A DNA stretch of 64,000 nt, from the NCBI GenBank assembly GCA_964019415.1, contig OZ025870.1:888501-952500 (forward strand). Reading direction: 5' to 3'. Shown here piece after piece: positions 1 through 64,000 of the stretch; the stretch's first letter is position 1; each line of letters starts with the position of its first letter. Source of the stretch: Ianthella basta. Lineage: Eukaryota > Porifera > Demospongiae > Verongiida > Ianthellidae. The position numbers and the translations under genes are program-made. The notes under the pieces are model-generated. The model had not been told where the DNA came from, did no database searches, and saw only the letters and a program-made list of their open reading frames with translations.

Positions 1-1452
1 CATTTCAGAGGTACGGCTTATATGCCCATACGTTAAAACAATCATCACGTATGCATTAAAAGTATCAAAATATGACGAATTTGTAAAGGTAGTGGTAGTT
101 CGCTCGAGTAATCGACTCACGAATCATTTCTGAAGACGATTCTAAAGGGAAGCCGTTCGCACTGAACTGTCCCATGTTAAAGACACTTTCAAAACTCTTA
201 GTATAGACGATTTGCGGCAATCGTCAACTTCTGTGATGTTCCTGTCACTTGTCAGAGGTAGCGGTGCAAATCAGGGAGCGGCCATTTTCTGACAGCTGTT
301 CGAAATGTCCGGATTATTGGGTGGGGTTTATACAGAGTTGCATAGGGCGGTACACACAGGGCAGCCAATTAGCACTGTATACCTAATATGTGCTTCTGCC
401 ATTGCACCCTACTTGACTGCCTCTTGTGATCAATTAACTTGTTAACGACTGTGCGCGTGCGTACCTGTCACAAGCACTAGTTATGCACGTAATACCTGGC
501 CATGGAAGTGCGCATGCATGCATCCCTCTGCACAATAACATCTGTAAGCCAACGCCCCGCCTGTCATGCTTCTGTACAAATAGACATCCCATATAATTAT
601 ATGTGTTATTTAATATATAGCCAAATGGACACCTTGAAGCCAGACACACTGGCACATTCCTGCAGGGCTATCTTATACAATCTTGTACTCTAAATATCCA
701 TACCTGTGATAGGTCCATCCCACTACATATAGACTTATTGTGATTGCATACTTTAGTTACATAGACCGGATGCATGCCCACGTTCGTACCATGTGCTGAT
801 AAAGTTGAACAAGGTGGCATAACATGATCCATTATATTGCAGCTGTTGGGTCACCTTGCAGCAGTTCTTCCACAACTAGTGCAAATTTGCACTAACACTG
901 TATATATGTGCTTTTGTACAAGAAATGGCTTCAAATGACTCTAGCCCTGGACAGCTATTATCTTATAGAGCAATATTAACCAATTGCACCAGCCTGCAGA
1001 TGATCGAGGTGTGTAGTTGTTGCCTGTGCTGTAAACCTTGTAGGGTGTTACATAAAAATGTCATGTCAAATTTAAAGAACACTGTACAGTACAATAGTGG
1101 CAGCCATCGTGTCTACTACTCATGTATATACACAGGTTAATGTCATGCTTTCAAAGGAAGATATAGGTGAAGGGATAGCCCCAATATATATCTGTCCCTT
1201 ATCTTACCATAATTTATGCTGATGTAAGACTATCCCATAGTCAGCTACACTGGTACACTTGTCAACTGCGATATGATCTTGCCTGTGCAATATAACATAT
1301 AGCAAGTCAAATAGAATGACCACATTCCATCCCTAAACTGCTTTGTAGCATATAACAGGTCACGCATACAGCACGCGCTGTTAAGGTTGACAATGTACAG
1401 TGTGGTTAAGATGTTGTGCAATGTTGAAGGCATACAAGTAATAGACCATACA

Positions 1453-2134
1453 TTACTGCTTGTCGGTAGTTTTGGGCACTACGATGTCCATATTGTCAGC
1501 CCACAGTGGGCCATACCAATGTCTACCATTAGGGAGTGGTACTGTGGAGTGCTCAGTAGTTGAGTGAACACGAATAGTGTTGAAGGCACTCTCGGAGAGG
1601 ACAGCTTGATCTTGGAGGTGTTGTTTCATCTCACAAACCCAATCCCCCTGTTTTGTCATGAAGAATGCGCCAATGTCAAAATCTGGTTGGTTTCGCTGCT
1701 TGGTACTTTGGTACTGGGAGCACATCTGCAAATGTCAAGGCAAGTAGGAATGTGTCCCATTTGACACCAATATTGCTGCATTTCTTGATTGTATCAAAGA
1801 ACCTGCTGCGTAGTCGTGTGTCATTTATTGGTAGGCAGTAGATGACGAGTGATAGGGAATCACCACGAATCCGTATTTTGATTGTTTTGAAGTGTTTGTG
1901 AGTGTCCTCCTCGACTCCGTAGCTGATGTAGAACACGAGTGGGCACCCGTCAGCTGACACAAAGTAATCACGCAGTTCTCCATGCTTGCCTCGGAGCTGT
2001 AATCCAAATAAGCTTTGTATTAGTGTTGACTTGCCACTTCCCGGTTCCCCCACAACTAGGATCCTAAGGAGTGTATCTCCAAGTTGATTTCTTTCTTTCA
2101 GTTTAGCAAAAGCATTCTTTTGCACACTTGCAGC
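1453..2134 (-). pseudogene. AIG1-like GTPase terminal exon, unit 1, frameshifted
   Basis: Reading starts after a TTTTCACAG acceptor at 2134 and ends at a TAA at 1453. It has an intact P-loop (GEPGSGKST), a degenerate switch (FYISYGVEE in place of DTPG), the family motif ALTFAD and a PLPNGRHW block. Just after ALTFADVLPVPK the frame breaks: five bases (TGCTT) stand where the intact fourth copy has a single A, a net +4. The second part of the domain continues in another frame to the same stop. As drawn it would give a protein truncated after G4, so it is probably a pseudo-exon or an unused alternative 3' end. Confidence 0.75.
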
Positions 2135-2494
2135 CTGTGAAAAGTGAATACAGTCAGCGGTATGACGTAATCCAGAAAATGGAGTCAAGGTAGTGATCTG
2201 GCTCACAAGGCTGGTCAGTCCCTAATGTGTGGTGCGCACAGTGCAGTGTGGCACTAAGCTTTCAACATTGTGTAAGTTAATGTGACTGCATGTATGCTTT
2301 CCTGCACATGCACGGTTTATAATTGAGGAGTATAAGTATCCAAACTTGCCATCACAGGAATACCTAAGCATGATGCACCTAGTCATGTACCAGCACAAAT
2401 TATGTGTATAATGTGACTGCAGCGAAAGTCGGTCTCAAGGCTACATATTATATGCAGCTACACATAGCTATAGCTGACAAACTTTGTCGCTCAC

Positions 2495-2559
2495 TTCAGT
2501 CGCTTCTGCCATTTGTGGCCTTGGTGCATGTGCTGTGGTGCTAACACAGATCGAGGCTC
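2495..2559 (-). CDS. Linker exon, unit 1
   Basis: This is a 65-base minus-strand exon between a GTATGCAG acceptor and a GTGAGC donor. Phase is 1 in and 0 out, matching both the upstream CARD exon and the downstream GTPase exon. It encodes a short Ser/Thr/Ala-rich linker containing VSTTAHAP and QMAEATE. It is shorter than the intact copy at 11117-11208 by an internal 27-base deletion that keeps the frame. The unit has no CARD exon of its own. Confidence 0.55.
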
Positions 2560-2615
2560 CTGCATACGTATATATGGTGGGTAATGCAGGCAACATCTAC
2601 ATCACACAATGGACT

Positions 2616-3018
2616 ACAGTGGAACCCCTTTAATGCGGACACCCTTCGGAACAAGGGAAGCGTCCTGATCATAGGGGTGTCCGCATTTCAGAGGTACGGC
2701 TTATATGCCCATACGTTAAAACAATCATCACGTATGCATTAAAAGTATCAAAATATGACGAATTTGTAAAGGTAGTGGTAGTTCGCTCGAGTAATCGACT
2801 CACGAATCATTTCTGAAGACGATTCTAAAGGGAAGCCGTTCGCACTGAACTGTCCCATGTTAAAGACACTTTCAAAACTCTTAGTATAGACGATTTGCGG
2901 CAATCGTCAACTTCTGTGATGTTCCTGTCACTTGTCAGAGGTAGCGGTGCAAATCAGGGAGCGGCCATTTTCTGACAGCTGTTCGAAATGTCCGGATTAT
3001 TGGGTGGGGTTTATACAG
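2616..3018. mobile_element. MITE-like segment at the repeat-unit boundary
   Basis: The left end reads CAGTGGAACCCC after a TA and is followed by TTTAATGCGGACACC, which resembles ends of Tc1/mariner-pogo type elements. The right end, read in reverse complement, is CTGTATAAACCCC followed by an AATCCGGAC block. The match between ends is only partial. No transposase is present. Equivalent copies lie at 5299-5701 and 7982-8384, with a right-hand part at 1-335. The fourth unit has no copy at its outer edge (near 11267). The pogo assignment rests on end resemblance alone. Confidence 0.4.
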
Positions 3019-4135
3019 AGTTGCATAGGGCGGTACACACAGGGCAGCCAATTAGCACTGTATACCTAATATGTGCTTCTGCCATTGCACCCTACTTGAC
3101 TGCCTCTTGTGATCAATTAACTTGTTAACGACTGTGCGCGTGCGTACCTGTCACAAGCATTAGTTATGCACGTAATACCTGGCCATGGAAGTGCGCATGC
3201 ATGCATCCCTCTGCACAATAACATCTGTAAGCCAACGCCCCGCCTGTCATGCTTCTGTACAAATAGACATCCCATATAATTATATTTGTTATTTAATATA
3301 TAGCCAAATGGACACCTTGAAGCCAGACACACTGGCACATTCCTGCAGGGCTATCTTATACAATCTTGTACTCTAAATATCCATACCTGTGATAGGTCCA
3401 TCCCACTACATATAGACTTATTGTGATTGCATACTTTAGTTACATAGACCGGATGCATGCCCACGTTCGTACCATGTGCTGATAAAGTTGAACAAGGTGG
3501 CATAACATGATCCATTATATTGCAGCTGTTGGGTCACCTTGCAGCAGTTCTTCCACAACTAGTGCAAATTTGCACTAACACTGTATATATGTGCTTTTGT
3601 ACAAGAAATGGCTTCAAATGACTCTAGCCCTGGACAGCTATTATCTTATAGAGCAATATTAACCAATTGCACCAGCCTGCAGATGATCGAGGTGTGTAGT
3701 TGTTGCCTGTGCTGTAAACCTTGTAGGGTGTTACATAAAAATGTCATGTCAAATTTAAAGAACACTGTACAGTACAATAGTGGCAGCCATCGTGTCTACT
3801 ACTCATGTATATACACAGGTTAATGTCATGCTTTCAAAGGAAGATATAGGTGAAGGGATAGCCCCAATATATATCTGTCCCTTATCTTACCATAATTTAT
3901 GCTGATGTAAGACTATCCCATAGTCAGCTACACTGGTACACTTGTCAACTGCGATATGATCTTGCCTGTGCAATATAACATATAGCAAGTCAAATAGAAT
4001 GACCACATTCCATCCCTAAATTGCTTTGTAGCATATAACAGGTCACGCATACAGCACGCGCTGTTAAGGTTGACAATGTACAGTGTGGTTAAGATGTTGT
4101 GCAATGTTGAAGGCATACAAGTAATAGACCATACA

Positions 4136-4817
4136 TTACTGCTTGTCGGTAGTTTTGGGCACTACGATGTCCATATTGTCAGCCCACAGTGGGCCATACC
4201 AATGTCTACCATTAGGGAGTGGTACTGTGGAGTGCTCAGTAGTTGAGTGAACACGAATAGTGTTGAAGGCACTCTCGGAGAGGACAGCTTGATCTTGGAG
4301 GTGTTGTTTCATCTCACAAACCCAATCCCCCTGTTTTGTCATGAAGAATGCGCCAATGTCAAAATCTGGTTGGTTTCGCTGCTTGGTACTTTGGTACTGG
4401 GAGCACATCTGCAAATGTCAAGGCAAGTAGGAATGTGTCCCATTTGACACCAATATTGCTGCATTTCTTGATTGTATCAAAGAACCTGCTGCGTAGTCGT
4501 GTGTCATTTATTGGTAGGCAGTAGATGACGAGTGATAGGGAATCACCACGAATCCATATTTTGATTGTTTTGAAGTGTTTGTGAGTGTCCTCCTCGACTC
4601 CGTAGCTGATGTAGAACACGAGTGGGCACCCGTCAGCTGACACAAAGTAATCACGCAGTTCTCCATGCTTGCCTCGGAGCTGTAATCCAAATAAGCTTTG
4701 TATTAGTGTTGACTTGCCACTTCCCGGTTCCCCCACAACTAGGATCCTAAGGAGTGTATCTCCAAGTTGATTTCTTTCTTTCAGTTTAGCAAAAGCATTC
4801 TTTTGCACACTTGCAGC
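4136..4817 (-). pseudogene. AIG1-like GTPase terminal exon, unit 2, frameshifted
   Basis: This copy is nearly identical to the unit 1 exon, with the same +4 frameshift after ALTFAD and the same stop position. A substitution changes IRIRGDS to IWIRGDS after the switch region. The P-loop GEPGSGKST is kept. The shared lesion shows that units 1-3 were copied after the frame was lost. Confidence 0.75.
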
Positions 4818-5177
4818 CTGTGAAAAGTGAATACAGTCAGCGGTATGACGTAATCCAGAAAATGGAGTCAAGGTAGTGATCTGGCTCACAAGGCTGGTCA
4901 GTCCCTAATGTGTGGTGCGCACAGTGCAGTGTGGCACTAAGCTTTCAACATTGTGTAAGTTAATGTGACTGCATGTATGCTTTCCTGCACATGCACGGTT
5001 TATAATTGAGGAGTATAAGTGTCCAAACTTGCCATCACAGGAATACCTAAGCATGATGCACCTAGTCATGTACCAGCACAAATTATGTGTATAATGTGAC
5101 TGCAGCGAAAGTCGGTCTCAAGGCTACATATTATATGCAGCTACACATAGCTATAGCTGACAAACTTTGTCGCTCAC

Positions 5178-5242
5178 TTCAGTCGCTTCTGCCATTTGTG
5201 GCCTTGGTGCATGTGCTGTGGTGCTAACAGAGATCGAGGCTC
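5178..5242 (-). CDS. Linker exon, unit 2
   Basis: Same 65-base linker exon as in unit 1, with acceptor GTATGCAG and donor GTGAGC. One base differs from unit 1 (Cys to Ser in the ASISVSTTAHAP stretch). It is kept in phase with a G-domain exon that is itself frameshifted. Confidence 0.5.
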
Positions 5243-6818
5243 CTGCATACGTATATATGGTGGGTAATGCAGGCAACATCTACATCACACAATGGACTAC
5301 AGTGGAACCCCTTTAATGCGGACACCCTTCGGAACAAGGGAAGCGTCCTGATCATAGGGGTGTCCGCATTTCAGAGGTACGGCTTATATGCCCATACGTT
5401 AAAACAATCATCACGTATGCATTAAAAGTATCAAAATATGACGAATTTGTAAAGGTAGTGGTAGTTCGCTCGAGTAATCGACTCACGAATCATTTCTGAA
5501 GACGATTCTAAAGGGAAGCCGTTCGCACTGAACTGTCCCATGTTAAAGACACTTTCAAAACTCTTAGTATAGACGATTTGCGGCAATCGTCAACTTCTGT
5601 GATGTTCCTGTCACTTGTCAGAGGTAGCGGTGCAAATCAGGGAGCGGCCATTTTCTGACAGCTGTTCGAAATGTCCGGATTATTGGGTGGGGTTTATACA
5701 GAGTTGCATAGGGCGGTACACACAGGGCAGCCAATTAGCACTGTATACCTAATATGTGCTTCTGCCATTGCACCCTACTTGACTGCCTCTTGTGATCAAT
5801 TAACTTGTTAACGACTGTGCGCGTGCGTACCTGTCACAAGCACTAGTTATGCACGTAATGCCTGGCCATGGAAGTGCGCATGCATGCATCCCTCTGCACA
5901 ATAACATCTGTAAGCCAACGCCCCGCCTGTCATGCTTCTGTACAAATAGACATCCCATATAATTATATGTGTTATTTAATATATAGCCAAATGGACACCT
6001 TGAAGCCAGACACACTGGCACATTCCTGCAGGGCTATCTTGTACAATCTTGTACTCTAAATATCCATACCTGTGATAGGTCCATCCCACTACATATAGAC
6101 TTATTGTGATTGCATACTTTAGTTACATAGACCGGATGCATGCCCACGTTCGTACCATGTGCTGATAAAGTTGAACAAGGTGGCATAACATGATCCATTA
6201 TATTGCAGCTGTTGGGTCACCTTGCAGCAGTTCTTCCACAACTAGTGCAAATTTGCACTAACACTGTATATATGTGCTTTTGTACAAGAAATGGCTTCAA
6301 ATGACTCTAGCCCTGGACAGCTATTATCTTATAGAGCAATATTAACCAATTGCACCAGCCTGCAGATGATCGAGGTGTGTAGTTGTTGCCTGTGCTGTAA
6401 ACCTTGTAGGGTGTTACATAAAAATGTCATGTCAAATTTAAAGAACACTGTACAGTACAATAGTGGCAGCCATCGTGTCTACTACTCATGTATATACACA
6501 GGTTAATGTCATGCTTTCAAAGGAAGATATAGGTGAAGGGATAGCCCCAATATATATCTGTCCCTTATCTTACCATAATTTATGCTGATGTAAGACTATC
6601 CCATAGTCAGCTACACTGGTACACTTGTCAACTGCGATATGATCTTGCCTGTGCAATATAACATATAGCAAGTCAAATAGAATGACCACATTCCATCCCT
6701 AAACTGCTTTGTAGCATATAACAGGTCACGCATACAGCACGCGCTGTTAAGGTTGACAATGTACAGTGTGGTTAAGATGTTGTGCAATGTTGAAGGCATA
6801 CAAGTAATAGACCATACA

Positions 6819-7500
6819 TTACTGCTTGTCGGTAGTTTTGGGCACTACGATGTCCATATTGTCAGCCCACAGTGGGCCATACCAATGTCTACCATTAGGG
6901 AGTGGTACTGTGGAGTGCTCAGTAGTTGAGTGAACACGAATAGTGTTGAAGGCACTCTCGGAGAGGACAGCTTGATCTTGGAGGTGTTGTTTCATCTCAC
7001 AAACCCAATCCCCCTGTTTTGTCATGAAGAGTGCGCCAATGTCAAAATCTGGTTGGTTTCGCTGCTTGGTACTTTGGTACTGGGAGCACATCTGCAAATG
7101 TCAAGGCAAGTAGGAATGTGTCCCATTTGACACCAATATTGCTGCATTTCTTGATTGTATCAAAGAACCTGCTGCGTAGTCGTGTGTCATTTATTGGTAG
7201 GCAGTAGATGACGAGTGATAGGGAATCACCACGAATCCGTATTTTGATTGTTTTGAAGTGTTTGTGAGTGTCCTCCTCGACTCCGTAGCTGATGTAGAAC
7301 ACGAGTGGGCACCCGTCAGCTGACACAAAGTAATCACGCAGTTCTCCATGCTTGCCTCGGAGCTGTAATCCAAATAAGCTTTGTATTAGTGTTGACTTGC
7401 CACTTCCCGGTCCCCCCACAACTAGGATCCTAAGGAGTGTATCTCCAAGTTGATTTCTTTCTTTCAGTTTAGCAAAAGCATTCTTTTGCACACTTGCAGC
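6819..7500 (-). pseudogene. AIG1-like GTPase terminal exon, unit 3, frameshifted
   Basis: Third frameshifted copy. The P-loop reads GGPGSGKST instead of GEPGSGKST because of one base change. The frame is broken at the same place as in units 1 and 2. The second half also has Phe to Leu (GALFMTKQ) relative to the other units. Confidence 0.75.
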
Positions 7501-7860
7501 CTGTGAAAAGTGAATACAGTCAGCGGTATGACGTAATCCAGAAAATGGAGTCAAGGTAGTGATCTGGCTCACAAGGCTGGTCAGTCCCTAATGTGTGGTG
7601 CGCACAGTGCAGTGTGGCACTAAGCTTTCAACATTGTGTAAGTTAATGTGACTGCATGTATGCTTTCCTGCACATGCACGGTTTATAATTGAGGAGTATA
7701 AGTGTCCAAACTTGCCATCACAGGAATACCTAAGCATGATGCACCTAGTCATGTACCAGCACAAATTATGTGTATAATGTGACTGCAGCGAAAGTCGGTC
7801 TCAAGGCTACATATTATATGCAGCTACACATAGCTATAGCTGACAAACTTTGTCGCTCAC

Positions 7861-9501: not shown

Positions 9502-12157
9502 TTATTGCTTGCTGGTAGTTTTGGGCATTGCGATATCCAATATGTCAGCCCACAGTGGGCCATACCAATGTCTACCATTAGGGAGTGGTACTGTGGAGTG
9601 CTCTGTGGTAGAGTGTATGTGAATAGTGTTGAAGGCCCTCTCGGAGAGGACAGCTTGATCTTGGAGGTGTTGTTTCATCTCGCTAACCCAATCCCCTTGT
9701 TTTTTCATGAAGAATGCGCCGATGTCAAAATCTGGTTGGTTTCGCAGGTACTTTGGTACTGGGAGCACATCTGCAAATGTGAAGGCAAGTAGGAATTTGT
9801 CCCATTTGACACCAATCTTGCTGCATTTCTTGACTGTGTCAAAGAACCTGCTGCGTAGTCGTGTGTCATTTATTGGAAGGCAGTAGATGATGAGTGATAG
9901 GGAATCACCACGAATCAGTTTTTTGATTGTTTTGAAGTGTTTGTGAGTGTCCTCCTCAACTCCATAGCTAATGTAGAACACGAGTGGGCACCCGTCAGCT
10001 GACATAGAGTAATCACGCAGCTCTCCACGCTTACCTCGGAGCTGTAATCCAAATAAGCTTTGTATTAGTGTTGACTTGCCACTTCCCGGTTCTCCCACAA
10101 CTAGGATCCTAAGGAGTGTATCTCCAAGTTGATTTATTTCTTTCAGTTTAGCAAAAGCATTCTTTTGCACAATTGCAGCCTGTGAAAAGTGAATACAGTC
10201 AGCGGTATGACGTAATCCAGAAAATGGAGTCAAGGTAGTGATCTGGCTCACAAGGCTGGTCAGTCCCTAATGTGTGGTGCGCACAGTGCAGTGTGGCACT
10301 AAGCTTTCAACATTGTGTAAGTTAATGTGACTGAATGTGTGTGTTCCTGCACATGCACGGTTTATAATTGAGGAGTATAAGTGTCCAAACTTGCCAGCAC
10401 AGGAATACCTAAGCATGATGCACCTAGTCATGTCCAGCACAAATTATGTGTACTAGCTGAATGCCTGCCCTACGGGCAGGTTGCCAGCCTCTTGCAAGCC
10501 AGCGAGTCGGTCCCTTGCCAGTATTGAACTATCTGCACAGGTAGCAATGGAGGCTGGCTGCTATAACGACAGTAGAGTTTAATTCGAACATTTGCAACAA
10601 CGAATAAGATCTCACGTAACCGAAAGTTCTAGAGACCAATAATTAAAAATGGTGTCTCGGCCCGCGGGAAAAAGGAAGCACTTTCTTCGGCTGCAGGGCA
10701 GCTAGGTGAACTGCACCCCTCTAAGCTCATATCCCCTCACTCCCTTAAATGGCATGGCTCGTATCATCAAGTACGCCAATGACCAGGTGTGGAAGGGCGG
10801 TCAATAATGTTAAAAATGGCGTGTCGGCCCGCGGAGAGTTGACGAAGAACATATATATCGTTTTTTGGCTGCAAGGCAGTTGGGCGAACGGCACTCTGCT
10901 AAGAACATGGCCCCCGAGCCCCTCCACTGGCACGGAGCGTCTCAAGCCGATTCCCTGCAAGTCGCCAATTTTATGGCTGAACAAACATACATAAAACATA
11001 CATAAAAATTCTAGATCCCATGAATTATAGTAAGATAGTGTGCCTGCAGCGAAAGTCGGTCTCAAGGCTACATATGCAGCTACACACAGCTATAGCTGAC
11101 AAACTTTGTCACTCACCTCAGTCAAGACAGGTTGAGGTGGGACTTGCGTAGCTTCTGCCATTTGTAGCCCTGGTGCATGTGCTGTGGTGCTAACAGAGGT
11201 GGAGGCTCCTGCATACGTATATATGGTGGGTAATGCAGGCAACATCTACATCACACAATGGACTAACTAACAGTGTTTGCATACTTTGCACCGTCTACTA
11301 TAATAGTTAAGGTTTGCGTTGTGTATACGTGAGTGTATTTGGTTGTCAAGCAGTTAATTGCCATAATTATGTAGCTATGTGTATAGCTGGTTGCATGTCT
11401 GGAAGATAGGGTTTATCCAAACAAACAAGGAATACATACGTACGTTCCCACAGATGGACAGAGTTTCTGATAGAACTGGTGGCATATGGATAAGATCAGG
11501 AATTCAGTTAGCTAAGTGTCATCTGAACATCGCTCTTGTTGCACCTGTGGCCAGCCTAGACAACCTACACACGTGTACAATATACCAGTCTGCTTACACA
11601 TTGCCAAATATACACACTGTAGATGACATCCTAGTATCGTATGTAATAAATACATGTACAATACATACACCATTCTTAATGTGGCATTTACTTTCTCAAG
11701 CTTCAAACTGCTCACAGCAAACTGCACATTGGTGATTATGCATACGTCGAACAAGCGACAATCTGAAGGTCTCTGGTGTCTCCATTCGACTTACCTCTCA
11801 ATTTCTCTGCCCAGTGCTTGTAACCATTTCCCTCAAGGACAGAACAGAACTTGTCAAAGTGATCCTTTGTCTTTGTCTTCAGAACTGCAATCAACTCATC
11901 CACTTGTGACACATTGTCTGGCTTGTTCTGAATCTGAGCAAATTCAACATCTGTCAGAGAAAGCCTGTGAAGTTCAGGTAAAAAGTTTTGGACAATGATC
12001 CCTGTTCTGAGCTCCTGGTGGTGGGAATTCAGAGATTCCTTCCATATCTCAATGGGCAGTCTCGCCATTTCATCAATCATTTCATCTGTGTGTTTGGTGC
12101 GATACACAATGTCATGCAGGTATCTAGACAGATCTGATGCAAGGTTAGTGTCAATGC
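9502..12157 (-). CDS. CARD-linker-AIG1-like GTPase gene (intact copy; 5' end unresolved)
   Basis: Exons in transcription order are 12157-11795 (CARD, acceptor TTCTTGTCAG, donor GTAAGT, ends phase 1), 11208-11117 (Ser/Thr/Pro-rich linker, phase 1 to 0) and 10179-9502 (G domain, phase 0, stop TAA). All phases agree. The CARD exon has the six-helix pattern seen again at 61604, including LTDVEF, VDELIAVL and FDKFCSVLEGNGYKHWAEKL. The G domain has P-loop GEPGSGKST, a degenerate switch (FYISYGVEE), ALTFAD in place of a normal G4, and LPNGRHW. The start may be the Met of MARLPIEIW, which aligns with the start of the CARD gene at 61604, or an upstream exon may exist. Inferred role: a CARD adaptor driven by a GTPase switch. 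This is the only intact G-domain copy in the tandem array. Confidence 0.68.
10452..11040. mobile_element. Insertion in repeat unit 4, unclassified
   Basis: The unit sequence stops after AAATTATGTGTA and resumes at about 11041 with CTGCAGCGAAAGTCGG. In between is foreign sequence with a CCTGCCC-TAC-GGGCAGG hairpin near the left end. It also has two diverged copies of a block of about 175 bp, each beginning AAAAATGG then GTGTC or GTCTC and CGGCCCGCGG (near 10645 and 10811). The right end has ACATACATAAA repeats, a 3' tail style seen in some LINE/SINE elements. It sits in the intron between the linker and GTPase exons. Confidence 0.5.
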
Positions 12158-13360
12158 CTGACAAGAACTGGTCAGTTTACATTACACATGTAGCATTTGA
12201 ACCAGCGAAAAAGCATAATTATACAGTGCACTTTAGTGCACAGAATGTCACATGATCCAACAGAGCACAATGGTTAATATCTTGCCCAGACAATTAAAGC
12301 ATACACAGCACAAGTCAGTACATATCAGTATATACAACCTACTCTTAAGGTAGATATGAACTTAAAATGCACAAACGGCCTGGGAGATAATGAGCCGGCA
12401 AAAGGCAAACAATGTTCCTCAAAGCCACTTTTCCTAGACAGGCTATAGCTATACCAAGACACATTGTGATCTAAGCCCATGCATAGCTTGCTATAGGAGA
12501 GATTTCAGACACTGACTATAACTCGATCCGTGCACTTTACAACACGTAGGCACTGTGACATTAAGGTGCCCCTTAATTCTGGCGAACTTCTCAATTCCTG
12601 CCAAATAAGACCTACTTAGCTATAGCTAGCTACAAGGGATCCTGACACTGAACCATTCGTCGTTGCACACACGCTGTGGTCCCGCGAGTGTCACAAACTA
12701 CGTACGAGGATGTCATGCGAGTCTCTTCTATTGATAAGTCAGTATGCGACACGGTAGAGCCGGCTCAACAAATCTTAGGCAGCTACACATCCGTTCGAAT
12801 AGCTAGGTAGTTGGCTAGATAGCTGCGCCTGAAAGTTAACTATAAGTTGGCTCCCTACACCACAATGAGCGCGTCTTCTTAGCTAGCTAGCTACTTACCA
12901 AAGAGTTTGAGGAAGAGATCTTCTTCAGAATTGAAGACAAACAGCTACGCAGATTGAGCGCAGGCTACACGCGGTGTCCCCTCAGGAAGTTTAGAATGGA
13001 GGCGAATCGAAGTAGCTATAGGTATACACGACTATTCCATCCTCAAAGAACTCCGGGTCTTTTGCGTTTTCGCGTGAACGCGAACGTGAACGCGACTGAG
13101 TGCACGCACCTGGTGACACTGCAATATTGATGTCCCTTTTATCAGGTAAGATCACATATGCTCACACTACACGTAGCTAGTATTATTGACATTGGGTTAG
13201 GTTATATCTTTGAGTAACATGTATGAATATCTTACACGCATTCACAGATTTGGAGTTGCTGACTTCCTGCTGCAGAATTAGCAACAACTAAGTAAGTTAC
13301 TGTGCTGTAGGCACAGATTAGGATATGGGCATGGATACACATGCAAGCAATGAGACACAT
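12158..13360. other. Intergenic or 5' intron region upstream of the CARD exon
   Basis: I see no supported coding exon. On the minus strand a GTAAGTAG donor lies at 12898-12891, and the sequence before it is open for only about 13 codons with no ATG. A non-coding first exon of the CARD gene is possible. GAACGCGAACGTGAACGCG-like short repeats occur near 13070-13100. Confidence 0.4.
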
Positions 13361-21920: not shown

Positions 21921-21942
21921 CTGTCAGGACCTTCTCTCTAAA

Positions 21943-26757: not shown

Positions 26758-26988
26758 TTGCTGCTGCATGGCTATATGCCTCTGCATGCATTGCGCTCTC
26801 TAGTGAGTGTCACTGCTAATGATGCAGGTCAACATAATTGTATTCATGACAAAGCGATTACTCGCGTGCGCAGTGTATATTTAGTACTTCTAAATGCGCC
26901 TATATTACTAATACTATTGATTAACGGGTGTGTGGAGAAGAATCCCTGCCGCAGTGGTGCCTGCTTAGGCACGAGACTCGCGACTTGA
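26758..26988 (+). other. Upstream ORF with degenerate 2A-like end
   Basis: A 76-codon frame ends eight bases before the ATG of the GTPase gene at 26996, in another frame. Its C-terminal part has a hydrophobic run (VLLNAPILLILLINGCVEKN) and then PCR. This resembles the 2A skipping motif (xGDVExNPGP) but lacks the key Asp, Gly and final Pro. Probably a leader or upstream ORF, not an active 2A. Confidence 0.25.
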
Positions 26989-26995
26989 AGGCCCA

Positions 26996-31828: not shown

Positions 31829-31841
31829 CAATAGAATTAAA

Positions 31842-46300: not shown

Positions 46301-47603
46301 AAAATTGTGTCAAATTTTTGTGGGGCATAAATTTTGTGCCTGGGCTACCTACGAAATTTAACCCCCACAAATTGTAACTGTGTACACTGTCAAGCACAGC
46401 AGAATACAGAGTACTACAGTTAGCCAAGTGAAGGTCTCCTATATCTTTACTCATTCTCCGACGTATGCCTTCCTGACCGAATATGCTGTAGTCTCGTTGA
46501 CCAAATGATTCAGCTCCCTGGAAAAGAAGAAGCCCGTTGCTGCATCCATGCCACGACACAAGCAGAGTTCTAGCATATTTCGGTCCAAACCTAGGGCTAG
46601 CGGCGGCGCTGTAGTGCTGGTAAGGCCGGCGCTTCCCCTTCGCACTCTGTGCAGTGCAGACCTACATGTTCGCTTTTGTAATGGCCGTGAAGGTAGTATA
46701 GCAGACGCTAGTGAGCTGCATCAATCCGGAAATCCTTAACTAATTTCTGCTGTAGGCACCTCAGAAGAGCCATCCTTCACAGCTCCTACAAACATAAGTG
46801 CCGCGCGAGTTCAGACACAGACCTTCGTATTGCCTTAATATATTAGACGTATTATATTAGTTACTACTGTATTTTTGTGCATAAATTTTTGTGGGCATAA
46901 TTTCTGTGGATGGAGGCAACCACGAAAATTTCCACACAACGAAATTTCAACGATTACGGTATCTGCATGCTTCTATGATGTTGGCCATATCACACAAAAA
47001 GTACTGCGAGGACTTGCAGGAGGCCATTTGATGCAAATACATGGCAACCTAAGTACAAATGTGCACAATTAATGTGAAGAGTCTCTGCCTCCTCCGTAGA
47101 TCGTGAGGATCATCTCATGCTCCTCAGAGAACATGTGAGCAGGAAGGCAGCAGGCAAGGGGAGGGCAGTCCTAGAAGTGCTGTTGTGTGATGCATCCACA
47201 ATTGAAGCTTGTTTCACAAACAACCCCAGGGACGAGGAGGATGCTGTACAAGCTGGAGTTGTCAAGTGGATAGGAGGCACTGGCAAACAACCTACCACCT
47301 GGGAAACAATTCTATATGCCATGAATTTTGCAAGAATTGCCCAACAACACATCCAAAGTTTGAAAGAGGACCTTGGCATTCCTCAGGTAAATACATGCAT
47401 ACTTGCAATTGACAGAAACATTAAATCTGTACTCCGTCGTATGTACAGAGTAGAATGCCTTCACATGCATGCAACTACGTACGTACGATTTGTGAAGTTG
47501 CTATTGTTCACTGCACATGTACATAGTGCACTCTTCACATACACAGGCTATGGACGTCCAGACAGGACCCACAAGCGGAGATGAGCGTTCACACTACACT
47601 TGA
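43315..47603 (+). CDS. Myristoylation-motif AIG1-like GTPase fused to a Death domain (gene G)
   Basis: Four exons: 43315-44278, 45924-46004, 47100-47386, 47547-47603; phases 1, 1, 0 match throughout; about 462 residues. It starts MGQRSSTLS (N-myristoylation signal). P-loop GEAGSGKST at about 41-49, no clear G3, VALTFADCCSAG, LLPNQEKW. A Ser/Thr-rich linker (TSADGQQNQTPTGSGCKAS) is followed by a Death-like domain: HLMLLREHVSRKAAGKGRAV, STIEACFTNNP, GVVKWIGG, PTTWETILYAM and IAQQHIQSLKEDLGI. The last exon adds MDVQTGPTSGDERSHYT. Acceptors are CATAG, CCGTAG and TACACAG; donors are GTAAGA, GTGAGT and GTAAAT. Intron 1 and intron 2 each contain a MITE-like element. Inferred role: a lipid-anchored GTPase that recruits Death-domain partners. 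Confidence 0.75.
44502..45587. mobile_element. Mutator-like non-autonomous element in intron 1 of gene G
   Basis: Left end TAGTCTTGTTCCCAGCCCCC. Right end, reverse complement, TAGTCTCATCCCCAGCCCAC. TAGCCCTCTT is found close to the left end (44484-44493) and directly after the right end (45588-45597), a direct repeat of about 10 bp like a Mutator-type target duplication, although a few bases separate the left repeat from the end. The sister gene F has a 314-bp intron here, against 1,645 bp. No transposase. Confidence 0.55.
46268..46966. mobile_element. TIR element in intron 2 of gene G
   Basis: Left end ATACTGTAATCGTAGAAATTT. Right end in reverse complement ATACCGTAATCGTTGAAATT. Next to both ends are repeats of CCCCACAAAAAT/TTTTTGTGGG type. 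About 700 bp. An acceptor-like CTGCTGTAG at 46747-46755, followed by a 27-codon open end, lies inside. Confidence 0.55.
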
Positions 47604-50143: not shown

Positions 50144-51900
50144 CATACTTGTGTATGCTACTGCAGTGTATGTTTGTTAGATGATCTCATTGTGGTTGCT
50201 TCAGGGAGAAACGGAGAGCAAGTGGCTCTGATGATGTAGACGCACCACTCCCAGAGTCAGAGAAGAGCAAGGATGTGATGACAGAAAATATACCACCTGA
50301 GGTGTGCTCACTAAATGTGTGGGTGGAGGAGTGGACCAGTTTTCTAATTTTCATTGACATATGGGCACATCTGGTATAGATTTCACTGCAAGTTCTAATT
50401 TGAACTCTGTTTTCAAACTAGAGGCTCTGAGCATTTGAGATAACAATCAAATACTGTATCATGAACATGGGAATTTGGCTTTTGTGAGCTGCTTAAGTGT
50501 ATGTATATGGCCGTGGCAGCCTGAGGGAGAAGTTAGTTTGAAGCCTAAATAAATATACACTGGCTCGGAATGGTTACTAAGCATTGCTTGCCACCGCATA
50601 ACAGTAAATTTTGGCTGGCTACTAAACACCAAAGGATTTGCTGAGAACTGCATGAGGGATTCATGCATTTGGGGGACAATTTATTCACTGCACATGCAAG
50701 TGAATTTACATAGATCATCTAGAATGTCACATTAATTGTCATGGGGCCTTTATTGCCATCTGCAAGCTCTGTTTTTGCTCCCATATGCATACAGGCGATG
50801 TATAGATATATACCCCCACTTTCTATCCCATGCAGGAGATGATTTGCAAACAGCCTATTGTGCTGCCCAGTCAACCCATGGCTACCTCCTCACAGAATGT
50901 AACAATGTTAATACCCCCATTTACACAGGACACAGCTGGTCACACTAAAGGTGAGATGGCTTCAGTGTGTGTGTGATGAAGAGTGCATGCCTCACTATGA
51001 AATCCATCGTCTCACATATATCTCTTGATGCAGTCCAGCCAGCTTTGAACCCATGTATGGCAAAAGCATCAAATCGCCGGGGGCGGGAAAGAAAAACATG
51101 AGTCCAGCAACAGTGGCTTTGAATTGCACTATCCTTAAAACATGGCGCTTGACATCGACAACGTACCTCTCCAACTGAAGTTAAGATGCCCAAGCTTAAG
51201 AAAATGCGATAGACTTACAAAGCTCCTGATACACAACATTTTATTCTCAGAATCTGTGATGGTCCATTCGCCATTCACCCGTGCTATACATTACCACAAG
51301 CTATGAATACTATTGACCAAGATTTTGGTCTAAACAATCTCATTGGTCAAACATTGTACAATTCAGAGCCGGTGTTGCGTTACCCACGTTTTTCCTTCCC
51401 ACCCCTGACACTTTGATGCTTTTGCCATATGTGGGTCCAAAGCTGGCTGGACTACTCTTGATGTTGCACACGCACAAACAACTACTTTTCTTGTGCACTA
51501 ATTAACAGCTGTTGTTGCTGTGGGATGCATTTCTGGCTTCATATTATTTCCACCTCTGCTGCATTCCACATTTGTATTTAACTGTTTAGAAGAAGTCCTG
51601 GCTTGTTTTAAGTCTTTTGGACAACGTTTTGTGAAGGAAGTGTGTTCACGAGACAACCATGCCTTTACTGCCAAGCTCCGTCTACAAAATGTTATCCCAG
51701 AGAGGATTGAGAACAGAATAGCAGCAGCAGACGACAGCGAGTCAGCCAACTACCTCCTTTATGACTTCCTTTGCCAGCAGGCGACTTCCGAATCCTTGTC
51801 CAAGTTGGTGGCAGCCATGATTGAGGCAGAAGGCCATCCCGCTATGAACAGACTGGGGAGAGAGATGAAGAGCACTATAACACTAGTTCACTCAAAATGA
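49700..51900 (+). CDS. PARP-type zinc finger to CARD gene, 3' part (gene H)
   Basis: Exons 49700-49905, 50205-50301, 50836-50950 and 51590-51900. Junction phases 2, 0 and 1 match at every step. The first exon is the second half of a PARP-type finger: GTVRMGKLVES, CYWYHPVCF, IQGFEELKPVDQES. The next two encode an acidic, Ser-rich linker (ASGSDDVDAPLPESEKSKD; PIVLPSQPMATSSQN). The last is a CARD-like domain: FGQRFVKEVCSRD, NVIPERIENRI, SESANYLLYDFL, LSKLVAAMIEAEGHPAMNRL. PARP fingers bind DNA breaks; a CARD would pass that to signalling partners (inference). The first half of the fingers is eroded (see 48766-49292). So the start is unknown, and the exons may also belong to a gene that now begins elsewhere. 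Confidence 0.5.
50030..50057. repeat. 28-bp perfect palindrome
   Basis: GTAGTAGCTGTCAT followed by its exact reverse complement, in an intron of gene H, a few dozen bases before a (GT)n run. Confidence 0.9.
50109..50142. repeat. (GT)n microsatellite
   Basis: About 17 GT repeats inside the first intron downstream of the PARP finger exon. Confidence 0.95.
51031..51455. mobile_element. Foldback element in the last intron of gene H
   Basis: Left arm from 51031 (GTCCAGCCAGCTTTG..CATGTATGGCAAAAGCATCAAA). Right arm is its reverse complement, 51389-51455. Arms are about 67 bp plus weaker inner similarity. It ends about 135 bp before the CARD exon acceptor. Confidence 0.7.
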
Positions 51901-56227: not shown

Positions 56228-56753
56228 ATAAACTTTCAGCCACATGGTACAGCAGTTTGCATTTCAAAGAATGCACTGCTCTGATGCAATCTGGCATCCT
56301 GTAAAGAAGCATTGATATGCAGTCAGCCCAACAAAGATGGCTGCACTGTTCACAATAATAACCAAAACATTTGCTCTTAAAACGGGTTGTAGGAAAATGG
56401 CAGTAGAACACTCTCAACAGTGCAGTGTTGTATGATGGCTGGACTATCCCAAAACGTATAACATCATTGCAGGAAAACCCGGAGAATCGCGCTACAAGCA
56501 ATTGAACATAAGAAAGTATATGTCCATATATCACAAGTAAAAAGGCGTGAACAACGCTTTTAAAACCACAAGTACATTAACAACTATCAAGCTTACCTGT
56601 CGTTGCCGTAACGTAGTGATTGTCCAAGAGATCACGGAGAAAAAGGCTAAAATATATTGCGCGTGTCTTTGCGAGGGAGACACCCAGCACCTCGAGGCCA
56701 GTTCCCAAACCCAAACTAAACTGCCGCCATTTATATTGTGCGAAACAGCCGTG
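56228..56753. repeat. Right arm of inverted repeat IR2
   Basis: Reverse complement of the left arm. The outer end carries the minus-strand promoter-like block (CGAAACAGCCGTG, 56741-56753) with a TATA-like ATATAAAT (minus strand, near 56736-56729). It lies about 100 bp upstream of the plus-strand membrane protein at 56860, the same arrangement as IR1 and the GTPase at 21943. Confidence 0.86.
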
Positions 56754-56809
56754 CTCAGCTAATCACCGGCCCGGGGCGGGAAAAGGCCGGGAAAGGGCGC
56801 TTATCCTTT

Positions 56810-56829
56810 CCACGTGCACGTGCACGTGG
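56810..56829. promoter_or_regulatory. Triple E-box palindrome
   Basis: CCACGTGCACGTGCACGTGG, a perfect 20-bp palindrome with three tandem CACGTG E-boxes, 31 bp before the ATG at 56860. CACGTG is the site of bHLH-Zip factors such as USF, MYC and TFEB/MITF. Confidence 0.7.
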
Positions 56830-56859
56830 GTGCTACGGAGCTCAGCGAGCCGCCGTACT

Positions 56860-57105
56860 ATGGAGAGTCAGGCAAACCTCTTCGAAGGCGTGGCCAAGGC
56901 AGTCCTGGAGGGATGTATGAGGATAGCTTTAAGCTTAATTAGTGTATGCCTATTCGCAGCCGCTGTTGTCACATTGGTGGCTGGAGTTTGTGCTACGGTA
57001 GGATACTTCATCAGCACAGCTGTGGCAGTACTGGCAGGGATATTTGGAGCAGGGATAGGGATGTTATGTGCTGGGGGATGGTTAGTCAAAGAAGCTACGA
57101 AATGA
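56860..57105 (+). CDS. Short Gly-zipper membrane protein
   Basis: 81 residues. Amphipathic start MESQANLFEGVAKAVLEGCM, then two hydrophobic stretches, ALSLISVCLFAAAVVTLVAG and VGYFISTAVAVLAGIFGAGI, ending GMLCAGGWLVKEATK. AGIFGAGIGM matches repeat three of the 192-residue protein at 31842. Start chosen at ACTATGG after the E-box palindrome; the frame is open further upstream through the IR2 arm, which is probably not coding. Confidence 0.55.
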   Translation: MESQANLFEGVAKAVLEGCMRIALSLISVCLFAAAVVTLVAGVCATVGYFISTAVAVLAGIFGAGIGMLCAGGWLVKEATK

Positions 57106-58381: not shown

Positions 58382-59929
58382 ATGGGGCAAGGGTCCTCTA
58401 GGAAAAGCACGCGCTGTAGTGAATGTGAAGAGCCTCTACCATTCGGTATCCTCCTGATTGGGGAGATAGGCTCGGGCAAGACAACTCTTCTCAACAACCT
58501 TCTGAGGAAGAAACGGACGAAAGACGACGATTTTGTGGCACCACCGTCAGACTTCTCCCCCGTGGTGAGGACAGTTGAAGGTGTGCCTGTTGAACTTTAT
58601 GACAAGCCTGGGTTCTGTGGCGATACAGATGGAGTGTACCTCGAATCCATCAGGGAGCTACTACATGGAAAACACAAGATCGACCTGGTTATCTTGTGCG
58701 TTAAGATGTCCGAGACAAGACTCCGCCACAGCCTCATCCGGTCATTCCAAGAACACGACAAGGTCGGTGTGGATTGGGAGAGAGTTATAATAGCTCTCAC
58801 GTTCGCAGATTGCTTCCCTGTTCCAAGCAAGCAGAGAAAAACGTTCCAAATTCCGCAGTACTTTAATCGTAAAGTGAGTGAGTGGCGAGATGTGTTGCAG
58901 AATGCTCTGTTTGAACAGGTTGGTGTGAAGCAAGAGGTAGCCAAGAGAATACCTGTATACCCCACTAGTAGGCTGCATGATGAGGCACTCCCCAACAGAG
59001 AGCAGTGGCTTGTCCCACTTTGGACTGCCATCCTGAAGAAGCGGTTGCTTGATGCTGCAAGGAGTGAGTGGGTGGAAGGGAAGTATAGTGTAATGAACAA
59101 TCATGATAGAGTGCAACAACAGACCGTCTCATCTACCCTTGAAACTCGACAAGAAGAGCTTCATTCACGGACGTGGTCACAAGAGTTGCAGAAGAGCAGT
59201 GTAAGCACATCGGCTATGCTTGAAACTCAAGATTTGCAGGTTGTGGTGGATGGTGCTAGTACAGAGTCAGAGCATCATGCAATTTTGTGGCGATCAGTCA
59301 AGCACAATTTCTCTGAAGTGCAGAAATCTTGCCCCATATTTGGTGTCCTTGTGATTGGTGAAACTGGATCGGGAAAATCGACTCTTATCAACAACCTGCT
59401 AGGGAGAGATGTGGCCAAAGTTGGTCACACAATGCAGTCACTGACGTCTAAAGTAACCCCTTACGATGTGGCGGTGGAGGGAGTTGGGCTATCCGTGTAT
59501 GATACGCCTGGACTGGATGACTCCTGTGGAGTTGACTATGAAAAGGGAGACCTGAAAATAATGCAAGACCTACTAGTCAAACGGAAAATCCACTTAGTCA
59601 TTTATTGCTTTAGAATGACTGAGACAAAGATGCGAGCTGGCCTTGTTCATGCGTTGCAAGAGTATGACAGGATTGGGTTACCATGGCAACACACCATCAT
59701 GGCACTCACCTTTGCCGACTGTGTGCCCAACTTTGACACCCGCCTGCCTGAAGTGCAAGAGATGCTAAGAGATGAACTCCTCAGAAGATTTTGGCCAAGA
59801 CGTGATGCCATAAACAAGATGAAGAGTTGTCCTACGACTGGTTGCATTGATAAACTGCTCCCCAATGGGACGCCATGGTTTACTACTTTCAGTTCAATGG
59901 TTGAAGAATCTCTGTCATCTTATGCTTAA
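58382..59929 (+). CDS. Myristoylation-motif double-G-domain AIG1-like GTPase (gene I)
   Basis: 515 residues. It starts MGQGSSRKS, a strong N-myristoylation signal. G domain 1: P-loop GEIGSGKTT at about 27-35, switch YDKPGF (T to K), ETRLRHSL, ALTFADCFPVPSKQRK. A Ser/Gln-rich linker runs from about 240 to 300. G domain 2: P-loop GETGSGKST near 326, canonical YDTPGLDDS switch, ETKMRAGL, ALTFADCVP and PTTGCIDKLLPNGTPW. It ends SLSSYA. Second domain very close to the one at 63401. Same order (diverged first, canonical second domain) as the gene at 28630. Single exon. Confidence 0.88.
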   Translation: MGQGSSRKSTRCSECEEPLPFGILLIGEIGSGKTTLLNNLLRKKRTKDDDFVAPPSDFSPVVRTVEGVPVELYDKPGFCGDTDGVYLESIRELLHGKHKIDLVILCVKMSETRLRHSLIRSFQEHDKVGVDWERVIIALTFADCFPVPSKQRKTFQIPQYFNRKVSEWRDVLQNALFEQVGVKQEVAKRIPVYPTSRLHDEALPNREQWLVPLWTAILKKRLLDAARSEWVEGKYSVMNNHDRVQQQTVSSTLETRQEELHSRTWSQELQKSSVSTSAMLETQDLQVVVDGASTESEHHAILWRSVKHNFSEVQKSCPIFGVLVIGETGSGKSTLINNLLGRDVAKVGHTMQSLTSKVTPYDVAVEGVGLSVYDTPGLDDSCGVDYEKGDLKIMQDLLVKRKIHLVIYCFRMTETKMRAGLVHALQEYDRIGLPWQHTIMALTFADCVPNFDTRLPEVQEMLRDELLRRFWPRRDAINKMKSCPTTGCIDKLLPNGTPWFTTFSSMVEESLSSYA

Positions 59930-60855: not shown

Positions 60856-61603
60856 GTTTTTTAACTCGAAATACTTGTTCACCAGAGTTTGTGATGACCA
60901 CCCTGTTATAATTCTTGTGTGAATACTGTCTTTGTAATAATGTTAACATGTTTATATTTATGTTATCTTATGTATACATGAGTAAAGTATAACTCAACTT
61001 AAGACGGATACAACAGGGCTGCCATTTTTAATTGTATTCATACTAGAGCACATAGCTTGTGGCCATGGGCTGCATGTAATGAAGGCTAGAGGTGGCAGCC
61101 CAGTGAATGTATAACTGCATGCCTCATTACAATCGATAATATCACTATCTCAGGAAATTGAAGCGCTATGTAGCCCATAACTAGGACTCTGATGGTGACC
61201 GTGATTATACTGTACTGCATGTACAGTCACATGCGAATTCATCTATTTTGTGCTGTACAACTGAATTGGCTAAATGTATAATAATGCATGGTTGTTTATA
61301 TATTTAGGACCATGTTTCAGTATAAAATCAAGAGTTTCATCCCTCCATGGTGTGCCATATCACAATGTATTCAAATTACCGTAGCTAGTTAACCCATGAC
61401 TGTACATGTACCAGGCTTATCATCATCAACAGCCTATTCAGTTACGAAGGAGGTGCATGGCAAGGGCCATAAACTGCAGCCCGAGGCATTGAAAGCGGAT
61501 GTTCAGTTGAAAATTACCGCATCCTCACTGTGAAACAACACAACGAGCCACTACGTCATTAGTCACGTGCTCCTAGTCATTACTTCCGTATCGATCCTTG
61601 GAG
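60856..61603. other. Intergenic and promoter region of gene J
   Basis: No gene seen. The last 100 bp before the ATG at 61604 hold GTCACGTG (61562-61569), an E-box-containing string, and should include the promoter. Confidence 0.4.
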
Positions 61604-64000
61604 ATGGCAGAGCATAGACAATGGGTGGAGCCAGCGTGGAAAACGTCGCTGAAGAGACACCACAGCGAACTTAGAAGTGGCATCATTATTGCTAACGTGT
61701 TACCAGCTTTTCGTCCGCTGTTGACGGACGTTGAGTACCTGTGTGTTGACGAAAAAGTGGGCACCCCTGGGCGCGTCGATGAGTTAGTGAAGATACTGCT
61801 AACCAAAGACCACTCGACTTTTGATCGATTTTGTACTGCTTTGGAGAGAAACGGTTATTCTCACTGGGCCAGCAAACTGAGAGGAAATGATGATGAACGG
61901 TTTCCTGCAAGCTTTCGTGCGGACGCATTGCCACGTAAGTTTACTAAAGTAGTTTAGCTAGCTACGTACGTAGATAGGTGGCTAGCTATCCATCAATGAG
62001 TTTTGGGATATCCTGATAGTGTTGCATTGGTCACTAGTAGTTATATGCTTGTTCAGTCCGAGAGTATGACTGCTGGATGTGGGATGGGATGGGGACGAGA
62101 ATGTAGTTTCAACCCATCTTTCCAAACGGCTATAGCTAATACAATAGTGGTTTCCTATTTTAGAAGATTGGCATGGCTCAGGCCATAAAACCATAGATAC
62201 TTGATATAAAAGGTGATACCACCCTACACAGCACAAACAGTGAACAACGTCAAATGCATGCCCAAACCTCAAGATTGGTACCCAACACGTGATTGTAGGT
62301 TAACTATATCTAATGCTGCAGCCTCGTCTTTATAGCAAGTGGTAACTTGACAGAGTGTACAGATGTTATAGGTACTAGCTAAGTAGCTACTTAGCTAGCT
62401 ATAATAATGATTGATTTAAGCTATGCAATGTTGTCTTGACTGAAAATTTATAGCCAACTGCCACTAGTAAGCATGTTTCATATGGTGAGCCTCAAGCCCT
62501 GTGCAGCCATTATAGCTATATTATGTTCACTTATGTAGCTGTTATGAATCAGTAGCTGTTAATGTTACTTATAGTTTTAATAAGCTATCATTGTAAGTGG
62601 TATGATATTGTCTATTGAATATGTTATGCTCTATGTTTTCTATGCAGGTGTTCAAAGTCAGCACAGCGATTTTGGTATTCTGGTAGTCGGTGAGACGGGT
62701 ACTGGCAGGTCCACACTCATCAACAACCTCCTGGGGATTGACTTTCTGGCTGTTGGCAGCTCTTTTGTAGTCCGCCCTGAAATTATCAAAATTGATCGTT
62801 GCAGCATTGAAGGAGTGCCTGTTGCCTTGTATGACACTTATGGACTGAATAATTCCAGTTGCGATCGAGACGACCAGAATCTTCGAGAGATAGGAGGCAT
62901 CTCGAAGAGTGGCGCAATCCACCTAGTGATTTACTGTTTGAAAATGTCAGATACGAGGATGCGTAACAGCCTCATTCGCACATTCCAAGAATACAACAAG
63001 ATAGGTGTGAGATGGGAGCACACAGTAATTGCGCTAACATTTGCCGATGCTTTACCAGTGCCTGGAGCGAAAAGAAGGAAGCCAGGTTTTGAAATGGGTT
63101 ACTACTTTAATGATCGGGTGGCTTCGTGGTGTGCTCAGATTGCAAGAACATTAGTTGAGAGAGTGGGGTTAACACCTGAAGTTGCAGGCATGACTAAATG
63201 TTACCCGACAACTGAGGATCCTGATGAGAGGCTTCCTAATGGGGAAAGTTGGTATAATCCATTTCGGTTTGGTGTCTTGGACATGCTGTCCCCAAGTGCA
63301 GCACTAATGTTTCTGGAAAAGCACAAAGGCAGGAGGGAACTTGTTGGTGATCAAATGTAGAGTTTGTCAGCTCGTTTGCAAAATTAGTAAATCCTGCAAC
63401 ATTGTGGCGGTCAGTTAGAGAGAAGTTCACTCAGGTGCAGAAGCCTTCCCCTATTTTTGGTATCCTAGTGATCGGTGAAACAGGATCAGGCAAGTCAACT
63501 CTGATCAACAACCTATTGGGTAGAGAGGTGGCACTCGTTGGTCACACCATGCAGTCAGAAACGTCCACAGTGACCCCTTACGATGTGGCAATCGAGGGTA
63601 TTGGGCTGTCTGTGTATGATACACCTGGGCTTGATGACTCCTGTGGTGATGAGCATGAAACACAAGACCTGCAAATAATGCAAAAGCTTCTAGCCAGGGA
63701 GAAAATCCACTTGGTCATCTATTGCTTTAGAATGACTGAGACAAAGATGCGGAGAGCTCTGATTCATGCATTGCAAGAATACGACAAGATTGGTTTGCCA
63801 TGGCAGCACACCGTCATGGCACTCACTTTTGCTGACTGCGTGCCCAAATTTGACACTCACCTGCCTGAAGTGCAAAAGATGCTGAGTGGAGAACTCTTGA
63901 GCAGGTTTTGGCGGAAACGTGATGCCATAAACAAGATGAAGAGTTGTCCTACGACCGGTTGCGTAGATCAGCCATTGCCAAATGGGTCACCCTGGTTTAT
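61604..64000 (+). CDS. CARD fused to two AIG1-like G domains (gene J, 3' end outside window)
   Basis: Exon 1, 61604-61934 (ATG in GAGATGGCAG, donor CAC|GTAAGT, phase 1), encodes a CARD: WKTSLKRHHSELRSGIIIAN, LLTDVEYLC, VDELVKILL, FDRFCTALERNGYSHWASKL. Exon 2 starts at 62648 (acceptor TATGCAG) in matching phase. G domain 1 has P-loop GETGTGRST near 125-133, with Arg for the invariant Lys, and switch YDTYGL, so it is likely impaired. ALTFADALPVPG and LPNGESW follow. A TAG closes this frame at 63358. From 63401 a second G domain is open in another frame to the window end: GETGSGKST, YDTPGLDDS, ALTFADCVP, PTTGCVD. A frameshift, hidden intron or assembly error lies near 63330-63360; if real, the protein ends at 347 residues. 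Confidence 0.75.

Follow-up and report, generated by a model that had tools for sequence, protein, structure and literature searches.

How might one type of GTPase domain (G domain) become joined, within a single gene cluster, to several kinds of death fold and to several membrane devices, and what could such proteins do? This question is raised by a 64,000-nucleotide stretch of the sponge genome of Ianthella basta (assembly GCA_964019415.1; 209 Mb in 96 contigs), corresponding to positions 888501-952500 of contig OZ025870.1 (C3). This whole stretch is referred to below as the window, and feature positions are given in window coordinates. An initial annotation, made from the sequence alone, had described at least nine GTPase loci of one G-domain type carrying different partners. 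A profile built from the window-type family, which included four G domains of the window itself, matches 22 stretches that group into 16 G domains at 13 loci. The P-loop pattern is present in all 16 (one with Arg for Lys) and a TF[A/P][D/G] motif in 15, the remaining domain having TFSD. In line with that annotation, a single G-domain type is combined with CARD or Death, with a module found here to be DED-like, with a further G domain or with membrane tails. The interpretation favoured here, at slightly better than even confidence, is of a tandemly expanded non-bilaterian family in which a Toc34-like G domain has been recombined with death folds or membrane devices, and whose members would employ GTP to drive death-fold clustering.

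Fusion of the G domain to a C-terminal CARD

The strongest evidence for coupling comes from sibling loci outside the window, where the fusion is directly visible. G domain(s) and a C-terminal CARD share one frame at L023 (786 residues), L024 (622 residues, first G domain truncated) and L025 (815 residues), and at C3:1133838, another place in the host genome, an identical open reading frame (ORF) length of 527 residues is given for the G-domain and C-terminal CARD matches. In a survey of 125 proteins, comprising 120 listed of 203 G-domain matches plus five C-terminal CARD matches, at least 14 carry both domains in one ORF. When these are compared with six paralogues of the host, identity is 96-100% for three, which are the host's own proteins, 74% for one and 52-62% for ten. 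The G domain preceding the CARD retains its P-loop in 14/14 fusions, and all 14 proteins terminate at the CARD or just beyond it. By eye, the N-terminal G domain of L023, L025, L027 and L030 lacks the P-loop and retains TFAD and LPNG..W, giving a pseudo-GTPase fused to an intact one.

The same module occurs twice on the forward strand of the window, at 51502-51900 and as a frame-broken copy at 40145-40779, both absent from the initial annotation. The former, a Pfam-silent exon (51589..51900, start approximate), is of the CARD-type death fold, and the latter comprises a linker and C-terminal CARD with profile matches in two frames.

Affinity of the G domain

The Pfam AIG1 model (PF04548; curated cut-off 27 bits) was scanned against 11 window ORFs with G domains. 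It is passed by five of these (15372, 23688, 28504, 58361 and 63351), narrowly missed by 62584 (25.9 bits) and also failed by the other five; the best profile stretches stop by position 128 of 212. The nearest solved relatives are Toc chains, namely Toc34, T7I23.11 and Toc120/90, which rank first with two single sequences (E values 3.1e-9 and 2.7e-12) and with the family profile (4.3e-21 to Toc34). GIMAP4 and GIMAP7 follow, at ~3e-9 against 4e-21 for Toc34, with a match limited to the first part of the G domain. In contrast, residues 29-228 of L018 match Arabidopsis T7I23.11, presumably Toc33, over the whole domain (1.5e-11), including the LPNG..W stretch that is also present in Toc33/34. Among NCBIfam models, TIGR00991 matches L018 at 28-232 (4e-14, 52 bits, cut-off 422); a Toc model is top in four of eight family proteins and Era, MnmE or generic GTPase models elsewhere, all far under cut-off. 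A small tree of short stretches recovers the window family as one clade (ultrafast bootstrap, UFBoot, 100) and splits Toc plus this family from the canonical GIMAP group, the latter with weak support (78). The switch, with a DTPG-type G3 motif and TFAD, matches AIG1/Toc GTPases and not STAND ATPases. C-terminal tails seen in window G genes are hydrophobic or death-fold. Judged by its nearest solved relatives, the window G domain appears to belong to a Toc34-like branch of the AIG1/paraseptin GTPases, nearer to Toc than to GIMAP.

The window lies inside a large cluster, since C3 0.68-1.66 Mb holds at least 48 of the 119 AIG1 exon matches listed; genome-wide AIG1 counts are lower bounds, because only the best candidates were scored. 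A separate cluster, on C7, matches AIG1 over nearly its full length and has C-terminal tails that look heptad-like by eye.

Partner modules and tandem copies in the window

Both N-terminal CARD genes proposed initially were recovered. On the reverse strand, the CARD at 11736-12176 exceeds Pfam cut-offs (CARD_2 29.2 bits against 28.2; CARD 24.5 bits). Its exon (11795..12176, 5' limit provisional) has a phase-1 donor at 11794 (score 7.7) and is followed by a linker exon (11117..11208; acceptor phase 1, donor phase 0) and a frame-intact G-domain exon (9505..10179; family profile E 5.5e-50; acceptor phase 0, score 6.3). Against L050, this CARD exon has a ratio of nonsynonymous to synonymous substitution rates (dN/dS) of 0.31, and the linker block is ~80% conserved there. 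On the forward strand, the CARD at 61577-61957 falls below the CARD_2 cut-off (23.1 of 28.2 bits, E 7.6e-5) but is homologous to passing CARDs, being 51-60% identical to three Pfam-passing CARDs of L047 and 53% identical to that at 11736-12176. Its exon (61604..61934; donor 61935, phase 1) precedes G1 (62648..63350; acceptor phase 1, family profile), in which Arg replaces the P-loop Lys, and G2 (63351..63998; Pfam AIG1 46.1 bits), which lies in another frame than G1 and extends beyond the window end. The frame change at 63350 may represent a short intron, a frameshift or an assembly error. A CARD with a phase-1 donor is likewise placed ahead of G in L050 and L051, in the latter case joining phase 1 to phase 1; L049 has the same order, with another CARD-like ORF separating the two.

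Elsewhere, L047 (360-1999) has a single ORF with three CARDs in tandem; the exon after it is related to the DED/TRADD-N-like module described below (E 4.8e-7). At L043, L044 and L045, seemingly near-identical tandem copies, a CARD exon lies ~0.9 kb upstream of a more GIMAP-like AIG1 exon; splice phases fit in two of the three. An 1844-residue CARD ORF at C3:697 kb was ruled out as a giant protein, being an assembly gap of N.

The "helical plus beta/alpha module" noted earlier in two genes is present in both, as reverse-strand exons 64% identical to each other, and it is provisionally described as DED-like plus TRADD-N-like (ferredoxin/RRM-like). In the first gene, the module exon (17318..18022, start approximate; donor 17317, phase 0) precedes a G domain with hydrophobic tail (15375..16370; acceptor phase 0 by eye; Pfam AIG1 44.7 bits). 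In the second, the module (25480..26183; donor 25479, phase 0, score 6.5) precedes a G domain with a Gly-zipper hydrophobic tail (23691..24734; acceptor phase 0, score 5.8; Pfam AIG1 39.9 bits). A search with PF13820 (TRADD-N) gave no match, and nothing meaningful was matched when profiles of the DED module, the C-terminal CARD and the Death exons were searched against PDB sequences.

Two forward-strand exons, 35059..35342 (with its own stop at the end) and 47100..47386, are homologous to each other and each have a phase-1 acceptor. They correspond to the Death domains of two genes in the initial annotation, an assignment supported through a relative, L067, which is 50% identical and passes Pfam Death (30.5 bits against 22.6); direct Pfam Death (PF00531) matches are absent from the seven Death-exon family members scanned, window exons included. 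The G domains that precede them, at 33256..34185 and 43315..44278 (donor 44279, phase 1), are divergent, recognized by the family profile, and have an MGQ start with predicted N-myristoylation. Of the 119 AIG1 matches listed, 11 are followed on their own strand, within 4 kb, by a Death exon (150 listed Death places), and within that distance no Death exon lies upstream or on the opposite strand. Nine of these 11 pairs are spaced at 1.13-1.25 kb, and one of the 11 is on chromosome C21. Within 8 kb, 16 AIG1 matches have a Death exon downstream on the same strand, four have one upstream and one has one on the other strand. When the 19 Death matches of C3 0.9-1.26 Mb were placed at random in 5000 runs, the mean was 4.6 and the highest value 13, against 12 observed; since random placement reached 13, the tight spacing is a better argument than the counts. 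At L021 the join can be followed across a 164-nt intron (donor 2585, acceptor 2749, both in phase 1, with scores of 6.1 and 5.7). The order Death then C-terminal CARD recurs (35.1/40.5 kb, 47.1/51.5 kb and C3:1097376/C3:1099383), but the two may or may not share a transcript, because a stop closes two of these three Death ORFs. Over the whole genome, members of the Death exon family were found at no fewer than 150 places, from 506 candidates, spread over many chromosomes, a very large and partly hidden death-domain repertoire.

Membrane devices are a further recurrent partner. Of three claims made initially, those of a second G domain in three genes and of a predicted myristoyl start in three are borne out by the family profile and by three ORFs with an MGxxxS start, respectively. 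The third, Gly-zipper tails in four, survives as hydrophobic C-terminal tails in four G ORFs, of which only two have GxxxG repeats (4 and 9). In total, seven window G ORFs have a hydrophobic tail or MGxxxS start, including both G exons joined to the DED module. The forward strand holds single ORFs with a G domain and a hydrophobic tail containing a transmembrane segment (21898..22776; family profile 5.3e-49) or a Gly-zipper tail (26969..27904; nine GxxxG in the last 110 residues; family profile), and tandem G–G proteins in one ORF at 28504..30531, whose C-terminus by eye resembles the stretch preceding the C-terminal CARD of paralogues, and at 58382..59929, with an MGQ start (both Pfam AIG1 and family profile). 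Interleaved with the GTPase genes are four stand-alone hydrophobic ORFs, all forward, which are possibly partner or effector genes: 31719..32420 (eight GxxxG, no Pfam family at E 0.1), 36228..36821 (six GxxxG, no Pfam match above cut-off), 42196..42696 (one GxxxG) and 56620..57105 (two GxxxG, no Pfam family).

The start of the window, 1-10452, is a tandem array of a 2683-bp unit in ~3.9 copies at 97.6-99.1% identity, with a G exon in each. Three more copies of the CARD-gene G exon (1456-2221, 4139-4904 and 6822-7587, reverse strand) share the same 4-nt frame break, and no CARD match adjoins them across 1456..7587. Signs of decay, missed initially, comprise frame breaks (1456-7587) in three of the four tandem G copies and a break in one C-terminal CARD, together with the differing frames of G1 and G2. 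Across 19 pairs drawn from the N-terminal CARD, G domain, DED module and C-terminal CARD, dN/dS is 0.17-0.74 (calculated without a significance test).

Between the CARD–G and DED–G genes, at 13355-14960, lies a 22-bp minisatellite of ~40 copies beside a 660-bp TG repeat. Mobile elements may sit among the GTPase genes, since ORFs at L037 (1-840, reverse) and L024 (1-539, forward) resemble, by eye, reverse transcriptase and RecQ-type helicase. Mitochondrial COX1 on contig C96, with cox2 next to it, reads TGA as Trp 12 times and has AGA at positions where Arg is presumably conserved, as in genetic code 4. This usage argues against a bilaterian, and the sequence and gene order resemble those of sponges.

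Interpretation and relation to known systems

The G domains of Toc34 and GIMAP proteins dimerise via their nucleotide face. In the proposed mechanism, G domains that dimerise or oligomerise in a GTP-dependent manner would bring attached death folds together, and the clustered folds would nucleate CARD, DED or Death assemblies, acting as a GTP-controlled seed. Partners of the caspase, kinase or NF-kB type could be recruited to such assemblies, whether for defence or for cell death. A myristoyl start or hydrophobic tail might allow the members that have one to anchor the switch to endosomal or pathogen-vacuole membranes or to disturb these membranes, and tandem pseudo-G/G proteins may serve as built-in asymmetric dimers. 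The analogy with NLR signalling is a reasonable, if tentative, one.

Several observations weigh against this interpretation and lend themselves to other explanations. Some exon neighbours could be separate genes, such that the CARD–G pairs of the window, the Death exon at 35 kb and the C-terminal CARD at 51.5 kb are not fused; this is the least probable of the alternatives, and quite unlikely. A phase match arises by chance in one case in three, and genome-wide CARD–AIG1 proximity is weak when taken from Pfam matches alone. The initial annotation held that splice phases fit at each junction, and they do so for CARD–linker–G, CARD–G (61934 to 62648), both DED module–G joins (phase 0 to 0) and G–Death (44278 to 47100). 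The join from the 33238 ORF to 35059 is unfit: the only in-ORF donor scoring above 0 in the last 120 bases is in phase 2, and a phase-1 donor sits past the stop. In addition, no scored acceptor was found for the C-terminal CARD exon at 51.5 kb. Against separate genes stand the linker exon with its two phases, conserved in L050, the repetition of exon order in sibling loci, the tight G–Death spacing and the single-ORF G(–G)–C-CARD proteins. From phase fit and recurrent exon order, the CARD, Death and DED joins in the window itself are predicted.

If the death folds are indeed fused, the proteins might still act mainly as inhibitors or decoys, as do CARD-only and DED-only proteins, or many copies might be decaying relics of birth-and-death evolution. 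This is improbable to a degree shared by a scenario of membrane remodelling, in which a Toc34-, GIMAP- or IRG-like action on vacuoles or organelles came first and death folds served oligomerisation only, with no caspase or NF-kB signalling. The former would account for the first G domains of sibling proteins that by eye lack a recognisable P-loop, the Lys to Arg change in G1 at 62.6 kb, the frame breaks and the G1/G2 discord at 63.35 kb, and the very recent age of the tandem copies; it sits poorly with dN/dS below 1 in all four module types tested and with the P-loop kept in every CARD-adjacent G domain of the fusions. The membrane scenario draws on Toc34 as nearest solved relative and on the seven ORFs with membrane devices, both DED-joined exons among them, but in well-studied cases Death, CARD and DED serve as signalling adaptors, and the 14 fusion proteins have little or nothing beyond the CARD. 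GTP-driven death-fold clustering remains the favoured interpretation.

Contrary to what was initially implied, AIG1–death-fold fusions are already on record. The snail Biomphalaria glabrata has AIG1 proteins in 19 architectures, some with a CARD or Fas-type death domain at the N-terminus and some with dual AIG1 (PMC7053062). The sponge cluster shares with that family the fusion itself, tandem clusters, dual G domains and membrane segments. It differs in its Toc34-like G domain, C-terminal CARD and Death, DED plus TRADD-N-like module and predicted myristoyl and Gly-zipper variants, whereas 64 of 91 snail genes are coiled-coil GIMAPs (PMC7053062). Amphioxus GIMAPs combine CARD and AIG1, with or without HINT, in a tree that includes homologues labelled H. 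panicea (PMC12373286). An N-terminal CARD ahead of AIG1 and tandem AIG1 are common to both; the window has several death-fold classes and another G-domain branch, with no HINT among the Pfam scans run. NCOA6-clade TRADD-N proteins of Amphimedon, Crassostrea and Branchiostoma place a death-superfamily domain before an RRM-like TRADD-N, and AIG-GTPases are among TRADD-N partners in Crassostrea virginica (PMC8195603); in the window this dyad, only TRADD-N-like, is followed by a Toc34-like G domain that carries a hydrophobic tail. Among sponges, the glass sponge Aphrocallistes vastus has a tandem, mostly single-exon AIG1 expansion, for which the section consulted mentions no death-fold partner (PMC10282587), Dysidea avara employs IAN/GIMAP genes in symbiont response (PMC11229196), and Amphimedon was stated to lack AIG1 in earlier surveys (PMC3723955, PMC7053062). 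Weiss et al. found that some animal AIG1-like sequences cluster with Toc34 (PMC3723955).

Toc34/Toc159-type translocon GTPases supply the closest solved G domain by sequence, alike over the whole domain including LPNG..W; the window family differs in belonging to an animal genome, in its death-fold partners and in having TFAD where Toc has THA. Canonical GIMAP/IAN proteins share the Pfam family and are apparently represented by the C7 cluster of the same genome, with a weaker and partial match to the window G domain. As in NLR/STAND receptors, an NTPase switch is joined to CARD, Death or DED, but a GTPase replaces the STAND ATPase, and no LRR, WD or TPR appears among the Pfam matches of scanned ORFs. 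The open-access literature searched yielded no description of death folds fused to a Toc34-like GTPase, and the branch, module mix and scale of the fusions described here look new.

Coupling of GTPases to death folds has been described in a snail, in lancelets and, together with TRADD-N, in an oyster; these genes would add a non-bilaterian animal, and with it a second branch of the AIG1 superfamily, the Toc34-like one. More tentatively, and at rather less than even confidence, an early animal lineage may have possessed a combinatorial GTPase counterpart of the NLR/inflammasome system, in which a Toc34-type switch had its CARD, Death, DED/TRADD-N-like and membrane modules swapped within one duplicating cluster. 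Such clusters can harbour CARD, Death and DED-like modules that escape Pfam, and the proteins listed here provide a concrete set for asking whether a GTPase drives death-fold assembly as STAND ATPases do.

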